Part shown: positions 27,262-36,057 of the stretch, piece by piece | How the letters are laid out: every line of letters begins with the position of its first letter | Numbering within the stretch: position 1 is the first letter of the stretch | NCBI RefSeq assembly: GCF_001458175.1 | Contig: NZ_CYPW01000027.1 | Location: 54,256 to 118,255, forward strand | DNA from: Shimia marina | GTDB taxonomy: Bacteria; Pseudomonadota; Alphaproteobacteria; Rhodobacterales; Rhodobacteraceae | DNA: 64,000 bases | Direction of reading: 5' to 3' | Translations under genes and position numbers: made by a program | Notes under the pieces: generated by a model | Seen by the model: only the letters and a program-made list of their open reading frames with translations | The model's database searches: none | What the model was told of the DNA's origin: nothing

Positions 27262-28683
27262 TTAGGCGGCGGGCAAGGACAGGGTGACCTTGTCGCGGCC
27301 CTCGGCCTTGGCGCCATAGAGTGCCTGATCTGCGCGATCAATCAATGCGGAGGCGATGGCCTCATGTGATTTGGCGCAGTTGGGCAGAGCGTTTTTCTTG
27401 GCCTTGAGCATTTCACTGCCCATGGCCACCCCAATGCTGACCGTGACGGGGATCTGAATGTCACGCCCCCGCAGGGCAACAGGCTCCGTCCGCACGGCGT
27501 CGCACAGGCGCTCAGCAATCTTGGCCGCATCCTCAGCATTGTCAGTTTGTGCTACGATCAAGAATTCTTCACCGCCCATGCGGGCAATCAGATCGGTTTG
27601 TGACAGGCAGCGGCGCATCCGGCGCGCCACCTCGGCGAGCACCATATCCCCGGCGGCGTGGCCAAAGCGGTCGTTCACACGTTTGAAGTGATCCAGATCG
27701 GCCAGCATGACAGCGAAGTCCGCGCGTTGGGTGTCTGCATGCTGGGCCATTTTGGACAGATGCGGCATCGCATAGCGGCGGTTGAACAGGCCGGTCAGAG
27801 GATCCGTGACCGCCGCCGCAAGCCCATCGTCCACCCGTTTGCGCAGCCGGTCTGCAAGACGTTTGCGTGCGATCATACTGTCCAGACGCAGGGCAGCCTC
27901 TTCGGCATCAAAACCATCGCTCAGCACATCGTTGGCACCCAGATCGAGTGCGTTGACGCGGGCGGAGTCGTTATTTTCATCCAGCACGACCAACACGGCG
28001 GCTTCACGCGTGGTGGCGCGGGCACGGACCTCGGCCAGCAGGCGCAGCGCATCTTCTGGAAGGGCCGTTTGCAGGGAGATGACAATCGCATCCGGGGCAC
28101 TAAACTGTGACATGTCGCGCATGATTTCAGGCAGCGGCTGGCTGCGCAGACCATAGGGCACAATGCGCTGCAACTGCCGGCACCATTCCTGGCCCGTCGC
28201 GGTGGAGTGGCCGGCAATCAGAACCTGCGCGGGGCGGTCAAAGCCCTGCATGGCGTCCGCCAGACCGGGCAGGCGGCCTGCCTGTTCACGCAGACGCAGC
28301 TCTTCATAGGAGTTGCGCGCGCGCATGATCGAGCGGATTCGCGCCAGAAGCGCGTCGGTGGTGACAGACATTTCAAAGGCGTCATCGGCGCCTGCGCGCA
28401 GAGCTGCGATGCGGTCCGCGCGGCTGCCATCGGTGTGCACAAGCAGGATGGGCAGATGGGCGAATGCGGGGTTCTCTTTGATCTTGGCGCAGAGCGTGAG
28501 CGCGCTCATGTCAACGAGATCTCCGCCCAGAACCAGAAGGTCTGGGAGATCTGCCTGAAGCAGATCCAAAGCCTCGCCAGCGCTGGCGGCCTGTTCGACT
28601 TGAACAAAGGCGCCGGCCAATTTGACTTTCAACAAGATACGGTTCGCCGAGATACTGTCGACGATCAAGACATGAGCTGCCAT
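27262..28683 (-). CDS. pleD: PleD-like diguanylate cyclase with degenerate receiver domains
   Basis: A 473-residue protein with PleD architecture: REC1 (1-120), REC2 (about 150-270), GGDEF (about 290-473). The catalytic loop is MGGEEF, with DPLTGLFNRRY and DLDHFKRVND also intact, so c-di-GMP synthesis is expected. REC1 aligns without gaps to Caulobacter PleD, but the phospho-acceptor Asp53 is Gly (VLGG), the acidic pair is Asp9-Ser10 and the conserved Lys is Met. REC2 also lacks the Asp (IVIS). The I-site RxxD reads SQTD. Phosphorylation and product inhibition may therefore be lost. The ATG at 28683 gives MAAHVLIVDS; the frame continues upstream across a region that encodes other genes. Confidence 0.88.
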   Translation of the reverse strand: MAAHVLIVDSISANRILLKVKLAGAFVQVEQAASAGEALDLLQADLPDLLVLGGDLVDMSALTLCAKIKENPAFAHLPILLVHTDGSRADRIAALRAGADDAFEMSVTTDALLARIRSIMRARNSYEELRLREQAGRLPGLADAMQGFDRPAQVLIAGHSTATGQEWCRQLQRIVPYGLRSQPLPEIMRDMSQFSAPDAIVISLQTALPEDALRLLAEVRARATTREAAVLVVLDENNDSARVNALDLGANDVLSDGFDAEEAALRLDSMIARKRLADRLRKRVDDGLAAAVTDPLTGLFNRRYAMPHLSKMAQHADTQRADFAVMLADLDHFKRVNDRFGHAAGDMVLAEVARRMRRCLSQTDLIARMGGEEFLIVAQTDNAEDAAKIAERLCDAVRTEPVALRGRDIQIPVTVSIGVAMGSEMLKAKKNALPNCAKSHEAIASALIDRADQALYGAKAEGRDKVTLSLPAA

Positions 28684-28767
28684 AAGAAAACCTGAAAACT
28701 GTGGAAAAAGGGACAAGGTCATAATGGCTGAGCAATGGTTAACAAACTCTTTCGAAAGTTTTGACAA

Positions 28768-29052
28768 ATGAACATGTCTCAAGACTTTGCGGAAACCGTT
28801 GCGCTGAAGGCTTTGGGCTGGTTGGTGACCCAAGATGAGGTGGTTTCGGTCTTTCTTGGGGCTACTGGTGCGTCGGTTGAAGACCTGCGCGTGCGGGCGG
28901 GTGATTCTGACTTTATGGGGTCCGTGCTGGAATTCCTGACCATGGATGATGCCTGGGTTGTGGCCTTTTGCGATGCCAATGAGCTCGCCTTTGAGGTGCC
29001 TTTGCAGGCCGCACATCAGCTGCTGGGGGCATCTCGGGCCCATTGGACCTGA
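28768..29052 (+). CDS. DUF3572 family protein
   Basis: A 94-residue acidic protein: DFAETVALKALGWLVTQDEVVSVFLGATGAS..DLR, then FMGSVLEFLTMDDAWVVAFCDA, the DUF3572 pattern. Function unknown; it is often found next to pleD in alphaproteobacteria, as here where the two are divergent across 84 bp. An alternative ATG two codons later (28774) is possible. Confidence 0.85.
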   Translation: MNMSQDFAETVALKALGWLVTQDEVVSVFLGATGASVEDLRVRAGDSDFMGSVLEFLTMDDAWVVAFCDANELAFEVPLQAAHQLLGASRAHWT

Positions 29053-29175
29053 AACACTGCGCGGCGCATGTGTGGTTTTGCTTGCGTCAGCAGGGGACGC
29101 GGGGCACGGTGCTGCGATGAACGCAGATCTGGCAGGATTGCCGGGCGTAAGAGCGAAGACATCACAAAAGGCAAT

Positions 29176-29868
29176 ATGATGCGGGTTGACGGACTTCTGT
29201 TTGATAAAGACGGTACGTTGTTTGATTTCGGAGCCACCTGGAACGGTTGGGCGGCACAGATGATTGCGCGCTTTGCCGCGGGAGACACGGCTTTGGCAGG
29301 GCGCATTGCGCAAGCGTTGGAATATGATCTTCAGGCGCAGGCCTTTTTGCCAGAAAGTTTTGTCATTGCCGGGACCAATCGTGAAGCCGCAGAAGCGGTG
29401 GCAGGTGTTCTGCCTCAGGGTGATGTGGACCAGATTGAGACGGATCTGATGCTGGCTGCTGCGGAGGCACCTTTGTCGCCTGCTGTCCCGCTTGGGCCGC
29501 TGATGGACGGGTTTTTGAGCCATGGCTTGCAGCTTGGCGTGATGACCAATGATACCGAATACGGGGCGCGGGCGCATCTGCGTGAAGCAGGTGTTGAGGA
29601 TCGTTTTGGCTTCATTGCCGGGTTTGACAGCGGATTTGGGGCCAAGCCGGACCCTGCGCCGCTTTTGGCATTTGCGGATCATGCCGCCTTGTCACCGGGC
29701 CGCGTGGCCATGGTGGGCGACAGTACGCATGATTTGATCGCGGGACGCCGTGCAGGGATGCAGACCGTGGCTGTTCTGACCGGGGTGGCCGGGACGGAAG
29801 AGTTGGCCCCACTTGCGGATGTGGTTCTGACCAATATTGGGCATCTCCCGGATTGGGTGAGCAGCTGA
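29176..29868 (+). CDS. HAD-superfamily hydrolase, phosphoglycolate-phosphatase-like
   Basis: A 230-residue HAD-IA phosphatase. Motif I FDKDGTLFDFG carries the nucleophile Asp. Motif II is in LGVMTNDTE (Thr/Asn), the Lys of motif III in GFGAKPDPAP and motif IV in VAMVGDSTHDLIAGRRAGM. Substrate could be 2-phosphoglycolate or another small phosphate ester; sequence does not decide. Two adjacent ATGs (29176, 29179) are possible starts behind AAAAGGC. It starts 123 bp after DUF3572. Confidence 0.88.
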   Translation: MMRVDGLLFDKDGTLFDFGATWNGWAAQMIARFAAGDTALAGRIAQALEYDLQAQAFLPESFVIAGTNREAAEAVAGVLPQGDVDQIETDLMLAAAEAPLSPAVPLGPLMDGFLSHGLQLGVMTNDTEYGARAHLREAGVEDRFGFIAGFDSGFGAKPDPAPLLAFADHAALSPGRVAMVGDSTHDLIAGRRAGMQTVAVLTGVAGTEELAPLADVVLTNIGHLPDWVSS

Positions 29869-30071
29869 GTGGCAGTTGCGCTTGAGCGCGCTGCTCTCAT
29901 TCTGAGACGGTGATGGCCTGGGCTGTGCCCGAAATTCAACGTGACCTGTGCAATGGTGGCCTTATTTGTCGGGCGAGCCGGCCTATGTTTTGACTTAAGG
30001 TCAAGCGTCAAAGCATTGTTTTTCTGGGCCAAGAGCGATAGAGAATGCGCGACATTTGCAGGAGGGGAGCC

Positions 30072-31823
30072 ATGCATACGCAAGAGGGGCGCACGGCAGC
30101 GGGGCGCGCTGAAATGGCTTTGGTTGGCGGCTTTGCCGGCCTTTCTATCTGGGCGCTTGTGGAGCAGATCCCCGAGGTCGTGACGCAGCCACATGCCTAT
30201 CTGGCCGTCTTCAGCTTTGTGTCTGGTTTTTTTGCCGTGCTTCTTGGGTTGAGTGGTCCCTATCGGGTGGCCCGCTCCATCTGGCCCGCTCTGTGCCTTT
30301 CCGCTGTTGCGGCAGTGTTGTTTTTTGCGGCCGGTTTGCGCTTTGACACGTTGGAGACGTTTTTTGATGCAGGCTACCCGGCGATTGCCTGGGCGATCCT
30401 GCTTGCGGTTGGCACGCCATTTGCCGCTAGCCTTTTACGAGACCACCGCATGGTTTGGGACTATGTGCATCTGTTTGATGTGAGTTGGGGCATCCTTGTG
30501 CGCTATTCTGCCGCCTGGCTCTTTGCTGGAGTGTTCTGGGCGGTGGTGTTTCTGAGTGATGCGCTTTTGCAGATCGTTGGGCTGACGGTCATTGACGATC
30601 TGCTGGATATTGATGCTGTGCCCTATCTGATCACCGGAGTAGCGCTGGGGCTTGGCCTATCGGTGGTGCATGAAATGCGGGACTATCTTTCGCCTTTCCT
30701 TGTGCTTCGGCTCCTGCGCCTCCTCATTCCGGTTGTCCTGGCGGTGGTGGTGGTTTTTGTCATCGCTGCCCTGTTGCAGGATCCGGGGGCTTTGTTTGGC
30801 AGCCTGAGCCGGGCCGGAACCCTTTTGGCGGTGGCGGTTGCAATGATCAGCCTTGTCAGTGTTGCGCTAGATCGTGGGGATGCCGATGCCGTGCCAAGCG
30901 GGTGGATGCGCTGGGCCACCGGTGCGCTGGCGCTGCTCTTGCCGGTGATTGCCGCCCTCGCGGGCTATGCTTTGTGGTTGCGTGTTGCGCAGCATGGCTG
31001 GACACCACCGCGGCTTGCGGCGGTCTGTTCGGCGGGTATCGTGGCGATCTATGCGCTCACTTATGCTATCGCCGTTATGACCGGGCGCGGATGGATGCGG
31101 CGCATTCGGCAGGCCAATATTTTGATTGCAGGTCTGGTTCTGGCGCTTGCAGCGCTGTGGTTGACGCCTCTCCTGAATGCAGAGCGGATTTCAAGCGCAT
31201 CGCAGGTTGCGCGCATTCTTCGGGAGGATCTGTCACCCGCCGATGCACCGCTTTGGGAGTTGCAGAATGACTGGGGGCGTGCCGGACAACGTGGGCTGGA
31301 TTTTCTGATCGCGCAGATGGGGAATGATCATCCGGAGTACGCAAAGGCGATTGCGGCCTTGAGTAAGGTGCCGAGCAAATGGGAATTGGAGCAGGTGACG
31401 CAGGATACGCGTGAGCTGCGCGATGCCAAGGCGTTGTTGAATTCTTTGAGCATCATTCCCGCAGAAGCTGATATTCAGGCGCAGAATTTGCTTGCTTGGT
31501 CCGGGTATCGCCTTAGAAACTGGGCGGAACTGTGCGAAAAACGGTCGGATCCTGGCTGTGTTTTGCTGCTCGGCGACTTTCAGCCGACACAATTAGGGAG
31601 AGAGGGTTTTTTGTTTTTGCCCACCAATGGACGAAATTTTACCGTTTTTAGTGTGTTTGAACGGGGGGCAGATCTTTTCATAGGTGCAAACGTGCCGACG
31701 GAGGGCGCCATGCAGGTGACCCGTGGACATGTTGAGCATATAATGGAGGGACGTTTTGAGGTTGCCCCCAGCAGCCGCAATTCCTTGTGGATTGGTGCGT
31801 TGGAGTTGTTTCCAGAATTCTGA
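30072..31823 (+). CDS. DUF4153 polytopic membrane protein
   Basis: A 583-residue protein with about ten to twelve hydrophobic helices over residues 15-380 and a soluble C-terminal part of about 200 residues (from LNAERISSASQVARILRED). The first half resembles DUF4153 proteins (LRDHRMVWDYVHLFDVSWGILVRY; VALGLGLSVVHEMRDYLSPFLVLRLLRLL). The C-terminal part has no motif I recognise. The ATG at 30072 has a strong AGGAGGGG site 6 nt upstream. It ends 61 bp before the H-NOX-like gene on the same strand, so they may share a transcript. Confidence 0.75.
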   Translation: MHTQEGRTAAGRAEMALVGGFAGLSIWALVEQIPEVVTQPHAYLAVFSFVSGFFAVLLGLSGPYRVARSIWPALCLSAVAAVLFFAAGLRFDTLETFFDAGYPAIAWAILLAVGTPFAASLLRDHRMVWDYVHLFDVSWGILVRYSAAWLFAGVFWAVVFLSDALLQIVGLTVIDDLLDIDAVPYLITGVALGLGLSVVHEMRDYLSPFLVLRLLRLLIPVVLAVVVVFVIAALLQDPGALFGSLSRAGTLLAVAVAMISLVSVALDRGDADAVPSGWMRWATGALALLLPVIAALAGYALWLRVAQHGWTPPRLAAVCSAGIVAIYALTYAIAVMTGRGWMRRIRQANILIAGLVLALAALWLTPLLNAERISSASQVARILREDLSPADAPLWELQNDWGRAGQRGLDFLIAQMGNDHPEYAKAIAALSKVPSKWELEQVTQDTRELRDAKALLNSLSIIPAEADIQAQNLLAWSGYRLRNWAELCEKRSDPGCVLLLGDFQPTQLGREGFLFLPTNGRNFTVFSVFERGADLFIGANVPTEGAMQVTRGHVEHIMEGRFEVAPSSRNSLWIGALELFPEF

Positions 31824-31884
31824 CGTGTTGGGGAAATCTTAAGATAGGTCGTGTCATAGTGCGTATGACGGAAGAGGTGTACTG

Positions 31885-32472
31885 ATGCATGGGTTGATCA
31901 ACAGAGCAATACAATGCTTTGTCCGCGACAGCTATGGGCAGTCGCGCTGGATTGAGGTGACCCGTCTTGCCAGCGTGGAGACCACGGACTTTGAGGCGAT
32001 GCTGCACTATGAAGATAGTGTGACCGATGATCTGATCATGGCTAGCGCTAAAGTCATCGGCGCGCCGCGTGAAACCATCCTCGAAGACATCGGCACCTAT
32101 CTGGTCACGCATCCCAACGTTGAGGCACTGCGACGGTTGCTGCGATTTGGCGGGCTGGATTTTGTTGAGTTTCTGCAGTCCTTGGATGACCTGCCCGAAC
32201 GGGCGCGGTTGGCCGTTGATGATCTGATTTTGCCATCGCTTGAGCTGCGGGAGCATTCGTCAGAGTGTTTTAGCCTGACCTGTCGTCATGATCAGTTGGG
32301 CTTTGGGCATGTGATGATTGGTATTTTGCGGACCATGGCCGATGACTATGGGGCTTTGGTGTTTCTGGAGCATCAAGGCGCGCAGCAGGATGCGGAGGTG
32401 ATCGACATTACCTTGGTGGAAAGCGCTTTTGCAAGCGGTCGTGAATTTGAATTGGGAGCACGTGCAGGGTGA
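31885..32472 (+). CDS. H-NOX (heme NO-binding, HNOB)-like protein lacking the proximal histidine
   Basis: A 195-residue protein with the H-NOX opening MHGLINRAIQCFVRDSYG..RW and the family pattern EDIGTYLVTHPN.EALRRLLRFGG. Lining up LQSLDDLPERARLAVDDL with the cyanobacterial H-NOX segment (LDNLHARV...) puts Pro104 where the heme-ligating His should be, and the YxSxR heme-propionate motif is also absent (residues 130-137 read SLTCRHDQ). Heme binding of the usual kind is thus doubtful. The gene overlaps the next (HNOBA-GGDEF) by 4 bp (GTGA), so the two proteins probably work as a pair. The ATG at 31885 follows GAAGAGGTG. Confidence 0.85.
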   Translation: MHGLINRAIQCFVRDSYGQSRWIEVTRLASVETTDFEAMLHYEDSVTDDLIMASAKVIGAPRETILEDIGTYLVTHPNVEALRRLLRFGGLDFVEFLQSLDDLPERARLAVDDLILPSLELREHSSECFSLTCRHDQLGFGHVMIGILRTMADDYGALVFLEHQGAQQDAEVIDITLVESAFASGREFELGARAG

Positions 32473-33482
32473 GCGAAATGGATCAGAATGGTGATCTTGT
32501 GGCCACTATGGATGTCCTGTGTCCGATGCATGTGCATTTGGACTGCGTTGGCAGGATTGTGCATGCTGGTCCGACGCTGGCGAAGCTATATCCGGATGGT
32601 GATCTGATTGGTCAGCGTTTTCTGGAGGCGTTTGAACTCAACCGTCCGCATGGTGTGAGCTCCATGGAATGCCTGTTGCAGGTGCAGGGGAAGAAGCTGC
32701 ACCTCAAGAAGCGCAGCGATCCTCAGACCGGGCTTAAGGGGGTTCTGATGCCACATGGCGACGGGGCCATTGTCAATCTGAGCTTTGGCATTTCCATTCT
32801 GGACGCTGTGCGTGAGTATGAATTGAACGCCCGTGATTTTGCCGCGACCGATTTGACAATTGAGATGCTCTATCTGGTGGAAGCGAAGTCCGCTGCGATG
32901 GAGGCGAGCCGCAAGCTGAATCAGCGCCTGCAAGGTGCGAAGATTGCAGCAGAAGAGCAGGCCTATACCGATACGTTGACTGGGCTAAAGAACCGCCGCG
33001 CGCTGGATTACATCTTGCCGCGGATGGTGGAGGAAACCACGCCCTTTGGGCTGCTGCATGTGGATCTTGATTTCTTTAAAGAGGTCAATGACACCAAAGG
33101 GCATGCGGCGGGGGATCTGGTCTTGCAGCATGTGGCCAAGGTCCTTGTGGACAGCAGCCGGGACGATGATGTGGTGGCCCGTGTCGGCGGTGATGAATTT
33201 GTACTGGTTATCAATGGCACGACGGATGCCGATGTTCTGGGGCGGATTTCTCAGCGGATCATCAAGGAAGTGGAGCGTCCTGTGCCCTACAAGGACAGCC
33301 TGTGTCAGGTGTCTGCGAGTGTTGGGATTGCTATCCATACCGGTGAGGTTGGGGCCTCGGTTGATCAGTTGATGGCGGATGCGGACGCGGCACTTTACGC
33401 GTCCAAGCATGATGGGCGCGCGACCTTTACATTGTTTACGCCGGACCTGCGCGACAGTGGGCCGTTGGCGCTGCATTCCTGA
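32469..33482 (+). CDS. HNOBA-coiled-coil-GGDEF diguanylate cyclase, partner of the H-NOX-like protein
   Basis: A 337-residue soluble protein. Residues about 18-130 look like the HNOBA (PAS-like) domain of soluble guanylate cyclase: CPMHVHLDCVGRIVHAGPT, FELNRPHGV, a variable loop, then LSFGISILDAVREYELNARDFAATD, with a coiled coil at about 130-165. The GGDEF domain follows: DTLTGLKNRRALD, HVDLDFFKEVND, RVGGDEF (239-244). The I-site RDDD (231-234) is intact, so c-di-GMP feedback is likely. The start is GTG at 32469 overlapping the H-NOX-like stop. It likely converts a signal sensed by its partner into c-di-GMP. Confidence 0.85.
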   Translation: MSEMDQNGDLVATMDVLCPMHVHLDCVGRIVHAGPTLAKLYPDGDLIGQRFLEAFELNRPHGVSSMECLLQVQGKKLHLKKRSDPQTGLKGVLMPHGDGAIVNLSFGISILDAVREYELNARDFAATDLTIEMLYLVEAKSAAMEASRKLNQRLQGAKIAAEEQAYTDTLTGLKNRRALDYILPRMVEETTPFGLLHVDLDFFKEVNDTKGHAAGDLVLQHVAKVLVDSSRDDDVVARVGGDEFVLVINGTTDADVLGRISQRIIKEVERPVPYKDSLCQVSASVGIAIHTGEVGASVDQLMADADAALYASKHDGRATFTLFTPDLRDSGPLALHS

Positions 33483-33526: not shown

Positions 33527-34432
33527 TCAAAGGCGCGCGATCGCCTGTCGGCTTTCGGTGGTGATGAAGTCCACAAATAGGCGCACCTTGGGATCTTGCA
33601 GTTTGCGGTGTGGGTAGAGGCAGCCAAAGGCCGCAGGGACTGGTGGGGTATCTGGCAGCACTTCCACCAAGGCACCGCTTTTCAGATGGGCGGCCACATC
33701 AAAGCGGGGTTTGTTGGCCACGCCAGCCCCGTCCAACGCCCATTGGGTGAGCACATCCCCATCATCCGCATCAAACCGGCCTTTGGCCTCAATCTTCTGA
33801 GGGCCATTTGGTGTTTGTAGCGTCCAAAAATATTCTGGAGACCTTGGAAAGCGCAACAAAAGGCAATTGTGTTTGGCCAGAAGCTCTTCCGGGGTCTGCG
33901 GTATGCCTGCGCGGGCGAGGTACTCGGGTGCGGCAACCAGCACGCGGTCACAATCTGCAATCTTGCGCAGCTTGAGATTGCTGTCTTGCAGCTCGCCCAG
34001 CACGAAGGCCACATCCAACCCATCTTCGAAGATGTCGACCTTGCGATCAGACAGACGCAGGCGCACATCCACATTGGGGTGCAGATCGGTGAAGGTCGGG
34101 ATCAGAGGTGCGATGATGCGCCGCCCCACGCCCAAAGGGGCGGTGACGCGGATGGTCCCCCGAGGGGTATCGGAAAATCCTGCCACCACCGCTTCGGCCT
34201 CATCGAGCGTTTCAATCACCTTGCGGGCGTGATCATAAAACACCTTGCCCACTTCGGTGGGGGAGAGGTGGCGGGTTGTGCGATTGAAAAGCCGCACCCC
34301 CAGCCGTGTTTCCAACTCCTTGACGCGGTTTGAAGCCACCGCTGGTGTGAGGCGCAGATCGCGACCTCCGGAGGTGATGGACCCCAGCTCCACAACGCGT
34401 ACAAACACACGCAGGCTTTCAAGATATGGCAT
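33527..34432 (-). CDS. LysR-family transcriptional regulator, probable control of xdh genes
   Basis: A 301-residue LTTR. The N-terminal winged HTH is MPYLESLRVFVRVVELGSIT..GRDLRLTPAVASNRVKELE (about 1-60); the effector domain starts at about 90 (RGTIRVTAPLGVGRRIIAPLI). It is divergent from xdhA with a 173-bp gap holding a 19-bp inverted repeat that fits an LTTR site (T-N11-A). Control of the xanthine dehydrogenase/guanine deaminase operon is inferred from this layout. The ATG at 34432 has AAGGACTG upstream. Confidence 0.87.
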   Translation of the reverse strand: MPYLESLRVFVRVVELGSITSGGRDLRLTPAVASNRVKELETRLGVRLFNRTTRHLSPTEVGKVFYDHARKVIETLDEAEAVVAGFSDTPRGTIRVTAPLGVGRRIIAPLIPTFTDLHPNVDVRLRLSDRKVDIFEDGLDVAFVLGELQDSNLKLRKIADCDRVLVAAPEYLARAGIPQTPEELLAKHNCLLLRFPRSPEYFWTLQTPNGPQKIEAKGRFDADDGDVLTQWALDGAGVANKPRFDVAAHLKSGALVEVLPDTPPVPAAFGCLYPHRKLQDPKVRLFVDFITTESRQAIARL

Positions 34433-34512: not shown

Positions 34513-34605
34513 TAGATTTGCCAAAACCCACGTTTCGGTCAAGTCTTGAGCCTTGCTACACTGATGTGTGGCCAAAGACGTGCCGACTCCCAGCAAGAGG
34601 TCAGG

Positions 34606-36057
34606 ATGCAGCACCGCAGCGAAATACGGTTTCTTCTCAACGGGCGCGATATGGCGCTTTCGGATGTGGGCGCAGATGATACGCTCCTTGATTTTCTGCG
34701 TCTTGATCAGCGCCTTACCGGGAGTAAGGAAGGCTGTGCTGAAGGCGATTGTGGCGCTTGTACCGTGATGGTTGGGCGGCTCACGCCAGAGGGGCTGCGG
34801 TATGAAACGGTGAATGCCTGTATTCGCTTTCTGGCCTCGCTGGATGGCTGTCATGTGGTGACCATTGAGTATCTTGGCGGCCCAAATGGGCGTTTGTCGC
34901 CGGTGCAGCAGGCCATGGTGGAGTATCATGGCAGCCAATGTGGCTTTTGTACGCCAGGTATTGTGATGTCGCTTTATGCGCTGTGGATGGCGCATGCACG
35001 GCCCACTGTCCGGCAAGTGGAAAGCGCGCTGCAGGGCAACCTGTGTCGGTGCACCGGCTATGCGCCGATCATTCGCGCCGCACAGGCGGTGACGGACTAT
35101 GGCACGGCCTCCGCCGAGCATTTGGCCACGGAGCGGGACAGCGTGACTGCGCGTCTGACAGCTATGCGTGATGGGCGTCGGGTCGATATTTCCAAAGGCG
35201 ATAGCCGCGCAATCCTGCCTGCGGATGTGGATGATCTGGCCGCGGTTCTGAAAGCTGCGCCAGAGGCAACCATTGTGGCGGGGTCCACCGATGTCGGGCT
35301 TTGGGTGACCAAGTTTTTAAAGCGGATTTCTTCGGCGGTGTTCATTGGCCAATTGGACGGCTTGAAAGAGATCACAGTGACCGAGGATGCGGTGACATTT
35401 GGCGCCGGGGTGACCTATACTGAGGCGCAGGATGTGATTGCGCAGCATTATCCGCATCTGGTGGCCTATTGGGATCGTATCGCGGGTTGGCAGGTGCGCA
35501 ATATGGGCACAATTGGGGGCAATATCGCCAACGGCAGCCCGATTGGAGACACGCCGCCGGTATTGATTGCGCTGGGCGCGTCGATCACCCTGCGTAAGGG
35601 CGATGCGCGACGGCAGCTGCCACTTGAAGCGTTTTTCCTCGACTATGGCAAGCAGGACCGCGTCGAGGGAGAGTTTGTTGAGAGTATCACCATTCCGCGC
35701 GTCGCAGGTGGCTATCATGCGGCCTACAAGATTTCCAAACGGCGCGAAGAGGATATTTCCTCGGTGGCTGTGGGGATGCAGGTGACGGTGGAGGCAGGGG
35801 TGATCACAGCCGCGCGTCTGGCCTTTGGAGGTATGGCGGGCGTGCCCGCGCGCGCGGCGGCGGCAGAGGCGGCATTGCTTGGCCAGTCCTGGAGCGAGGC
35901 CAGCCTGTTGGCGGCGGCAGAGAAGCTGCCAGAGGATTTCCAGCCTTTGAGCGATATGCGCGCCACGGCCGATTATCGCATGAAAGTGGCGCAGAACCTG
36001 TTCCGCCGCTTCTGGCTGGAACAGTCCGGCGCAGACGCGCGGCTGGAACGGGCGTGA
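34606..36057 (+). CDS. xdhA: Xanthine dehydrogenase small subunit XdhA
   Basis: A 483-residue FeS/FAD subunit. The first [2Fe-2S] cluster is bound by Cys44, 49, 52 and 72 (KEGCAEGDCGACTV; NACIRF), the second by Cys112, 115, 147 and 149 (QCGFCTPG; GNLCRCTGY). A FAD domain follows from about residue 190 (VAGSTDVGLWVTK; GWQVRNMGTIGGNIANGSPIGDTPP). The enzyme oxidises hypoxanthine and xanthine to urate, passing electrons to NAD+. The ATG at 34606 has AAGAGGTCAGG upstream; an earlier in-frame ATG (34546) has no family support. It heads xdhA-xdhB-xdhC-guaD. Confidence 0.95.
   Translation: MQHRSEIRFLLNGRDMALSDVGADDTLLDFLRLDQRLTGSKEGCAEGDCGACTVMVGRLTPEGLRYETVNACIRFLASLDGCHVVTIEYLGGPNGRLSPVQQAMVEYHGSQCGFCTPGIVMSLYALWMAHARPTVRQVESALQGNLCRCTGYAPIIRAAQAVTDYGTASAEHLATERDSVTARLTAMRDGRRVDISKGDSRAILPADVDDLAAVLKAAPEATIVAGSTDVGLWVTKFLKRISSAVFIGQLDGLKEITVTEDAVTFGAGVTYTEAQDVIAQHYPHLVAYWDRIAGWQVRNMGTIGGNIANGSPIGDTPPVLIALGASITLRKGDARRQLPLEAFFLDYGKQDRVEGEFVESITIPRVAGGYHAAYKISKRREEDISSVAVGMQVTVEAGVITAARLAFGGMAGVPARAAAAEAALLGQSWSEASLLAAAEKLPEDFQPLSDMRATADYRMKVAQNLFRRFWLEQSGADARLERA

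Follow-up and report, generated by a model that had tools for sequence, protein, structure and literature searches.

An H-NOX-like protein without haem-binding motifs paired with an HNOBA-diguanylate cyclase in Shimia marina and its relatives

The gene pair and its surroundings

The window, a stretch of 64,000 nucleotides from Shimia marina, contains two adjacent genes on the plus strand, which code for an H-NOX-like (HNOB) protein lacking the haem ligand and for a protein where an HNOBA domain and a helix precede a GGDEF domain. The features of the locus are the following:

30045-31823: gene for a DUF4153 protein, preceding the pair
31827..31842, minus strand: conserved upstream element TTAAGATTTCCCCAAC, TTAA-N7-CCAAC, CtrA-like, 16 bp, about 58 bp before the start of the H-NOX-like gene
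31885..32472, plus strand: gene for the H-NOX-like (HNOB) protein, 195 amino acids, without haem ligand
32194..32196, plus strand: codon of Pro104, the residue aligned with the proximal haem His (profile alignment to Alr2278; column count)
32469..33482, plus strand: gene for the HNOBA-helix-GGDEF protein, 337 amino acids, GTG start
32508..32819, plus strand: HNOBA (PAS-like) domain, about residues 14-117 (PF07701 best stretch, soluble guanylate cyclase profile matches and model strands; end set by the model)
32853..32963, plus strand: signalling helix and putative coiled coil, residues 129-165
32961..33419, plus strand: GGDEF domain, residues 165-317 (PF00990)
33159..33170, plus strand: I-site RxxD (R231-D234)
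33186..33200, plus strand: GGDEF active-site motif, residues 240-244
33527-34432: gene for a LysR-type regulator, after the pair
34546-36057: gene for a molybdopterin dehydrogenase-type (FAD, 2Fe-2S) protein, after the pair

Both genes of the pair are open frames and overlap by 4 bp, exactly as the initial annotation of this DNA had described. The genes around them change between relatives: a homologue of the DUF4153 gene occurs in 42 of 75 flanks and one of the molybdopterin dehydrogenase-type gene in 12 of 75, the window being counted in both cases. Within about 5 kb of the cyclase, on the minus strand (27262-29682), lies a second predicted diguanylate cyclase, with a receiver and a GGDEF domain by Pfam and PleD-like by reading.

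The pair itself is stable. Thirty-one loci were first found through HNOBA (L003-L033); an H-NOX-like gene lies directly upstream of the family cyclase in all the 27 that hold one, the other four (L008, L010, L013, L021) matching only the C-terminal part of HNOBA and being left out of the family counts. Also left out were L001, a haem-type H-NOX with a kinase, the HNOBA-kinase loci L186 and L204, which have no H-NOX gene in the stretch examined (L204 lies at a contig end), and second copies of the window locus, although which of L002, L003, L120 and L177 was kept varies between counts. Gene order and shared strand are kept in 169/169 loci with either gene (loci up to L176), a set picked by one gene or the other and with some genomes represented twice; 124 of the loci offer a start codon that would produce the 4-bp overlap. 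The two genes are therefore conserved together among relatives, a point on which the earlier reading of the locus had been made to depend. In two loci, L164 and L168, a broken H-NOX-like gene stands beside an open HNOBA-cyclase gene.

The H-NOX-like family is present in 317 of 390 genomes of the order and in 111 of 139 genera, that is, in about four fifths of the sampled genomes, marine roseobacters included; this count contains a few haem-type members, e.g. G294, G600 and G619. A scan of public genomes returned at least 581 relatives, of which the best 80 were kept, and the closest among the matches listed belongs to Shimia (88% identity). Across the class, the HNOBA profile matches 9 of 385 sampled genomes, five being members of the own family, and across the phylum 24 of 398, with 22 in that family. 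No relative was found in the viral contigs scanned with the cyclase; 64 phage records matched, none covering 80% of the query, and the five matches inspected begin from residue 83.

Domains and lost haem motifs of the two proteins

The product of 31885..32472 is a member of the H-NOX fold by profile and by fold match, with a Pfam score of 83.8 bits for HNOB (PF07700) over residues 2-157, against a cut-off of 25.5. The H-NOX-like assignment of the initial annotation is thus borne out as regards family and fold; what it left unremarked is that the haem-binding residues are missing. When the protein is aligned by profile to Alr2278, Pro104 falls where the ligand His would be expected; also missing is YxSxR, a motif in contact with the haem propionates, while Pro117 is retained. 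The same holds for most of the family: the haem-ligand column of 158 distinct rows, including the window, reads P126, H11, Q6, A5, N3, S3, G2, D1 and K1, so that His is missing in 147 rows. Only the most distant of the 11 His rows, L174-L176, keep YxSxR. In a rapidly built tree of 136 rows, eight changes are required to account for the His rows (10.7 on average after shuffling, with 1 of 500 shuffles reaching so low a value), which indicates that they are partly clustered and yet do not form one clade; gain and loss of His are indistinguishable on this tree, which contains long branches and has good support for only 21 of its 133 inner branches.

The H-NOX-like gene is under constraint, with dN of 0.08-0.17 and dS of 1.7-2.5 against four close relatives. 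The absence of both the haem-ligating His and YxSxR means that, judging by sequence, the protein is not a normal haem/NO sensor. The alpha1 H-NOX of soluble guanylate cyclase is not known to bind haem, and it is to this subunit that the window protein has its closer parallel.

The N-terminal part of the cyclase was predicted to be HNOBA-like, and the searches agree: PF07701 scores 30.8 bits with the whole protein and 33.9 bits with the N-terminal part alone (cut-off 23.4), the best stretch being residues 14-81. No generic PAS family was listed by Pfam for the cyclase at E up to 10, although the HMMER filters drop most weak matches. A profile built from the N-termini of 18 relatives matches 2p04 and 2p08, labelled by the tool only as ‘signal transduction histidine kinase’, at E-values of 3.5e-8 and 9.7e-8, residues 208-369 of soluble guanylate cyclase beta1 at 9.8e-8 and alpha1 at 4.9e-6; these entries form the top of the match list. 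A chance resemblance to HNOBA was rejected on the PF07701 score together with the guanylate cyclase and kinase matches.

In the AlphaFold2 model of the cyclase (mean pLDDT 94) a continuous helix spans residues 129-165 and leads into a GGDEF fold. The coiled coil proposed earlier to follow HNOBA is therefore confirmed as a helix, and as a coiled coil it is putative. The GGDEF domain with intact I-site holds in full: PF00990 scores 137.3 bits, and the motif at residues 240-244 as well as R231 and D234 are invariant in alignments of 26 and 81 rows. No class III guanylate cyclase family was listed by Pfam, the output domain being GGDEF. By motif, fold and I-site, the product of 32469..33482 is predicted to be a diguanylate cyclase.

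Haem motifs, output type and the upstream element

HNOB and HNOBA split over two neighbouring genes are found also with kinase, receiver and GGDEF-EAL outputs, and the haem motifs follow the type of output. His and YxSxR occur together in 7/7 rows in which the HNOBA partner is a kinase, a receiver or a GGDEF-EAL protein, and in 0/165 rows with a GGDEF-only partner, YxSxR being missing in all 165; the latter count includes L006, a GGDEF protein, and two cyclases cut by the contig end. In the 165 GGDEF-only partners the chain continues for just 58-122 residues beyond the GGDEF motif, which leaves no room for an EAL domain. By contrast, Pfam detects EAL alongside GGDEF in the partners of L174, L175 (= L181) and L176, the motif of the last reading SSDEF; their HNOBA is seen by the family profile, whereas with Pfam two of them score 23.1 and 21.2 bits, just under the cut-off, and in L174 the domain is not listed. 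HNOBA-kinase partners were recognized by Pfam in L182 and L185 and by motif in L183, and an HNOBA-receiver partner in L184; the H-NOX proteins of these four loci keep both haem motifs.

A later sample gave a similar picture. YxSxR is missing in 17/17 family loci, some of which overlap the earlier set, and a lone His occurs in three; L228-L239, among the best HNOB scores of this sample, have YxSxR in 12/12 and His in 11/12, L239 reading Q. Altogether, His is present in eight GGDEF-only rows and in three loci of the later sample, and none of these 11 has YxSxR. Since the 165 GGDEF-only rows are mostly one family, the split between outputs may represent a single event. The split offers a direct comparison for the study of how an H-NOX protein may act on HNOBA without haem: loci with a GGDEF-only partner have lost the motifs that those with a kinase, receiver or GGDEF-EAL partner retain.

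Relatives having His without YxSxR are L007, L026, L048, L097, L113, L153, L170, L171, L240, L251 and L255, which are of interest for haem binding. A second H-NOX is coded in the genome of the window itself (L001, C1:189369-189848); it has His and YSSER and, by frame reading, lies beside a histidine kinase-receiver gene, so this genome also carries a haem-type H-NOX.

Motif discovery on 75 upstream regions returned TTAA[CG]A[AT][AT]NNNCCAAC, with 17.8 bits versus 8.0 in shuffles, and the 40 listed sites all lie on one strand between -55 and -67. In a held-out set of 59 non-redundant upstream regions, 23 score at least 12 (shuffles: 0.26 on average, at most 2), and these sites share one strand and lie between -53 and -71, while the other 36, including Paracoccus and the haem-type loci, fall below this score. 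The element is conserved in many genera, and the window site is its sole zero-mismatch match in the own genome. It has TTAA and the final AAC in common with the CtrA site TTAA-N7-TTAAC; that CtrA binds there is no more than a guess. The spaced pair TTAA-N7-TTAA is found upstream in 0/79 regions exactly, in 14/79 with one mismatch (shuffle mean 3.7) and in 77/79 with two (shuffle mean 32.5, maximum 39), the shuffles used here, in motif discovery and for the held-out set being permuted two-base blocks, a simple control. According to the available text of published work, the D. shibae hnox gene has been placed under the CtrA phosphorelay, and a site prediction there names dgc2, not hnox.

The idea that the element marks a large regulon found no support: matches with up to one mismatch number six in the own genome and six in a reversed control. 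The exact full CtrA site occurs 17 times versus 16 in the control, and the neighbouring genes at 10 of these genome-wide loci looked mixed.

Possible mode of action and known counterparts

On balance, we consider it probable, by a modest degree, that the pair is a Rhodobacterales (‘group 5’) H-NOX/HNOBA-diguanylate cyclase module, in which a haem-independent H-NOX subunit controls the cyclase through HNOBA. This reading builds on what the sequences show: the domain content of both proteins, the overlap of two genes read in one direction, GGDEF and I-site motifs that are intact, haem motifs that have been lost, and a pairing conserved among relatives; from these we infer a contact between H-NOX and HNOBA, a direction of control and a cyclase dimer. 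The cyclase would form homodimers through HNOBA and the long helix, and the H-NOX-like protein would dock on HNOBA and, via the helix, change the facing of the two GGDEF domains. The result would probably be a lower synthesis of c-di-GMP, in line with proposals made for P. denitrificans and D. shibae, and binding of the product at the I-site would cap the cyclase output. By analogy with soluble guanylate cyclase, it is a reasonable supposition that the signal passes along HNOBA and the coiled coil. Since it has neither His nor YxSxR, the H-NOX part most probably does not depend on ordinary haem-NO ligation: it may either bind another ligand in the vacated pocket or be a regulatory subunit without ligand.

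As to its history, we put forward, tentatively and with rather less confidence, that the ancestor was a haem-based H-NOX/HNOBA sensor whose haem disappeared, in perhaps a single loss, while its output turned into a GGDEF-only cyclase. Selection would since have maintained the haem-free H-NOX subunit across most of the Rhodobacterales for a new input (redox, a partner protein or a different ligand), and in much of the family the conserved CtrA-like promoter element would drive it.

The chief rival is a true NO sensor, with haem held via another residue or water and the NO-bound H-NOX inhibiting the cyclase, as reported for D. shibae in the work cited, in their available text, by PMC8846402 and PMC7232146. 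The retained fold and Pro117, as well as the His found in some members, speak for it; however, His is lacking in the great majority of rows, YxSxR is absent from every GGDEF-only row and the His rows do not form one clade on the tree, which makes NO sensing of this kind rather unlikely. A second alternative, that the two proteins are co-transcribed and yet separate in action, the pairing reflecting shared regulation only, we regard as improbable: kept gene order alone is no proof of binding, and L186 shows an HNOBA-kinase apart from any H-NOX gene in the stretch examined, but HNOB and HNOBA stand together in soluble guanylate cyclase, and the same pairing is seen with four kinds of output (kinase, receiver, GGDEF-EAL and GGDEF), with the 4-bp overlap usually possible. 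Finally, a generic PAS domain with a superficial resemblance to HNOBA has hardly any likelihood, for although HNOBA is PAS-like and Foldseek with the whole cyclase model gave results filled by GGDEF and PAS-GGDEF entries, with little information on HNOBA, it is contradicted by the PF07701 score above cut-off with no PAS family listed and by the family profile, which ranks soluble guanylate cyclase and the 2p04/2p08 kinase first.

The gene pair has close counterparts, and the H-NOX/HNOBA-diguanylate cyclase arrangement is already known and not a new architecture, since the two-gene split of HNOB and HNOBA occurs with other outputs and the pair has been studied in relatives. The window pair has the layout of the group 5 H-NOX/diguanylate cyclase module of the Pden_3719/Pden_3720 type, with a non-His ligand place and an overlap upstream of the GGDEF gene. 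Indeed, hnoX/dgcA of Paracoccus denitrificans likewise consists of overlapping genes coding a protein without proximal His and a GGDEF partner. In a P. denitrificans record (L034), Pro occupies the ligand position and the partner is recognized by the family N-terminal profile; the P. denitrificans H-NOX is 38% identical to that of the window, and the upstream element was not found at that locus. The available text of Kumar and Spiro (PMC5588039) describes the hnoX/dgcA overlap and the absence of the conserved His from the H-NOX of P. denitrificans and R. sphaeroides; there, biofilm was underproduced by a P. denitrificans hnoX mutant and overproduced by a mutant without both cyclases, and the authors suggest inhibition of DgcA by H-NOX. 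Against the module reading, the available part of a 2025 study left the c-di-GMP link in P. denitrificans unconfirmed by direct measurement.

A 2022 review (PMC8738867), in its available text, defines H-NOX ‘group 5’, built from the P. denitrificans protein, reports the proximal His in less than 10% of members and Pro in most, includes GGDEF among the neighbour families (figure legend) and asks how group 5 proteins sense, a question that the comparison of output types makes easier to test. That text mentions neither HNOBA nor a link to output type nor a promoter element; no account of the output/haem split, of the HNOBA assignment for group 5 or of the element was found in the literature searched, with most subscription papers outside it.

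Similar pairs, in which an H-NOX gene lies beside the gene of a c-di-GMP enzyme, are Dshi_2815/Dgc1 of D. shibae and rcc02630/rcc02629 of R. capsulatus, which are homologues according to the available text of PMC7232146. Unlike the haem-independent reading of the window pair, the D. shibae pair is said to respond to NO: experiments cited in the accessible portions of PMC8846402 and PMC7232146 indicate that NO is detected by its H-NOX, which thereupon inhibits Dgc1; the one of these two papers that is a review lists haem as a cofactor. PMC8846402, in the same portions, lists HNOB and HNOBA with GGDEF proteins, and PMC7232146 states that the R. capsulatus homologue adjoins a c-di-GMP gene affecting gene transfer agents and motility. 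The work on both species, as far as its available text goes, ties the H-NOX pair to quorum sensing, CtrA, motility and gene transfer agents.

The haem-type H-NOX and HNOBA-type proteins with GGDEF-EAL (L174-L176), kinase (L182, L183, L185) and receiver (L184) outputs share the two-gene layout with the window pair, and differ from it in having kept His and YxSxR and in their outputs. In animal soluble guanylate cyclase the order is HNOB, HNOBA, coiled coil and cyclase. The window pair follows this order, with both profile and fold matches, but as two proteins and not one chain, with GGDEF instead of the guanylate cyclase domain and with no haem ligand in the H-NOX part; the initial proposal of a guanylate cyclase-like order split over two genes, with the cyclase replaced by GGDEF, is thus sustained by the domain scores and by the order common to all 169 loci.
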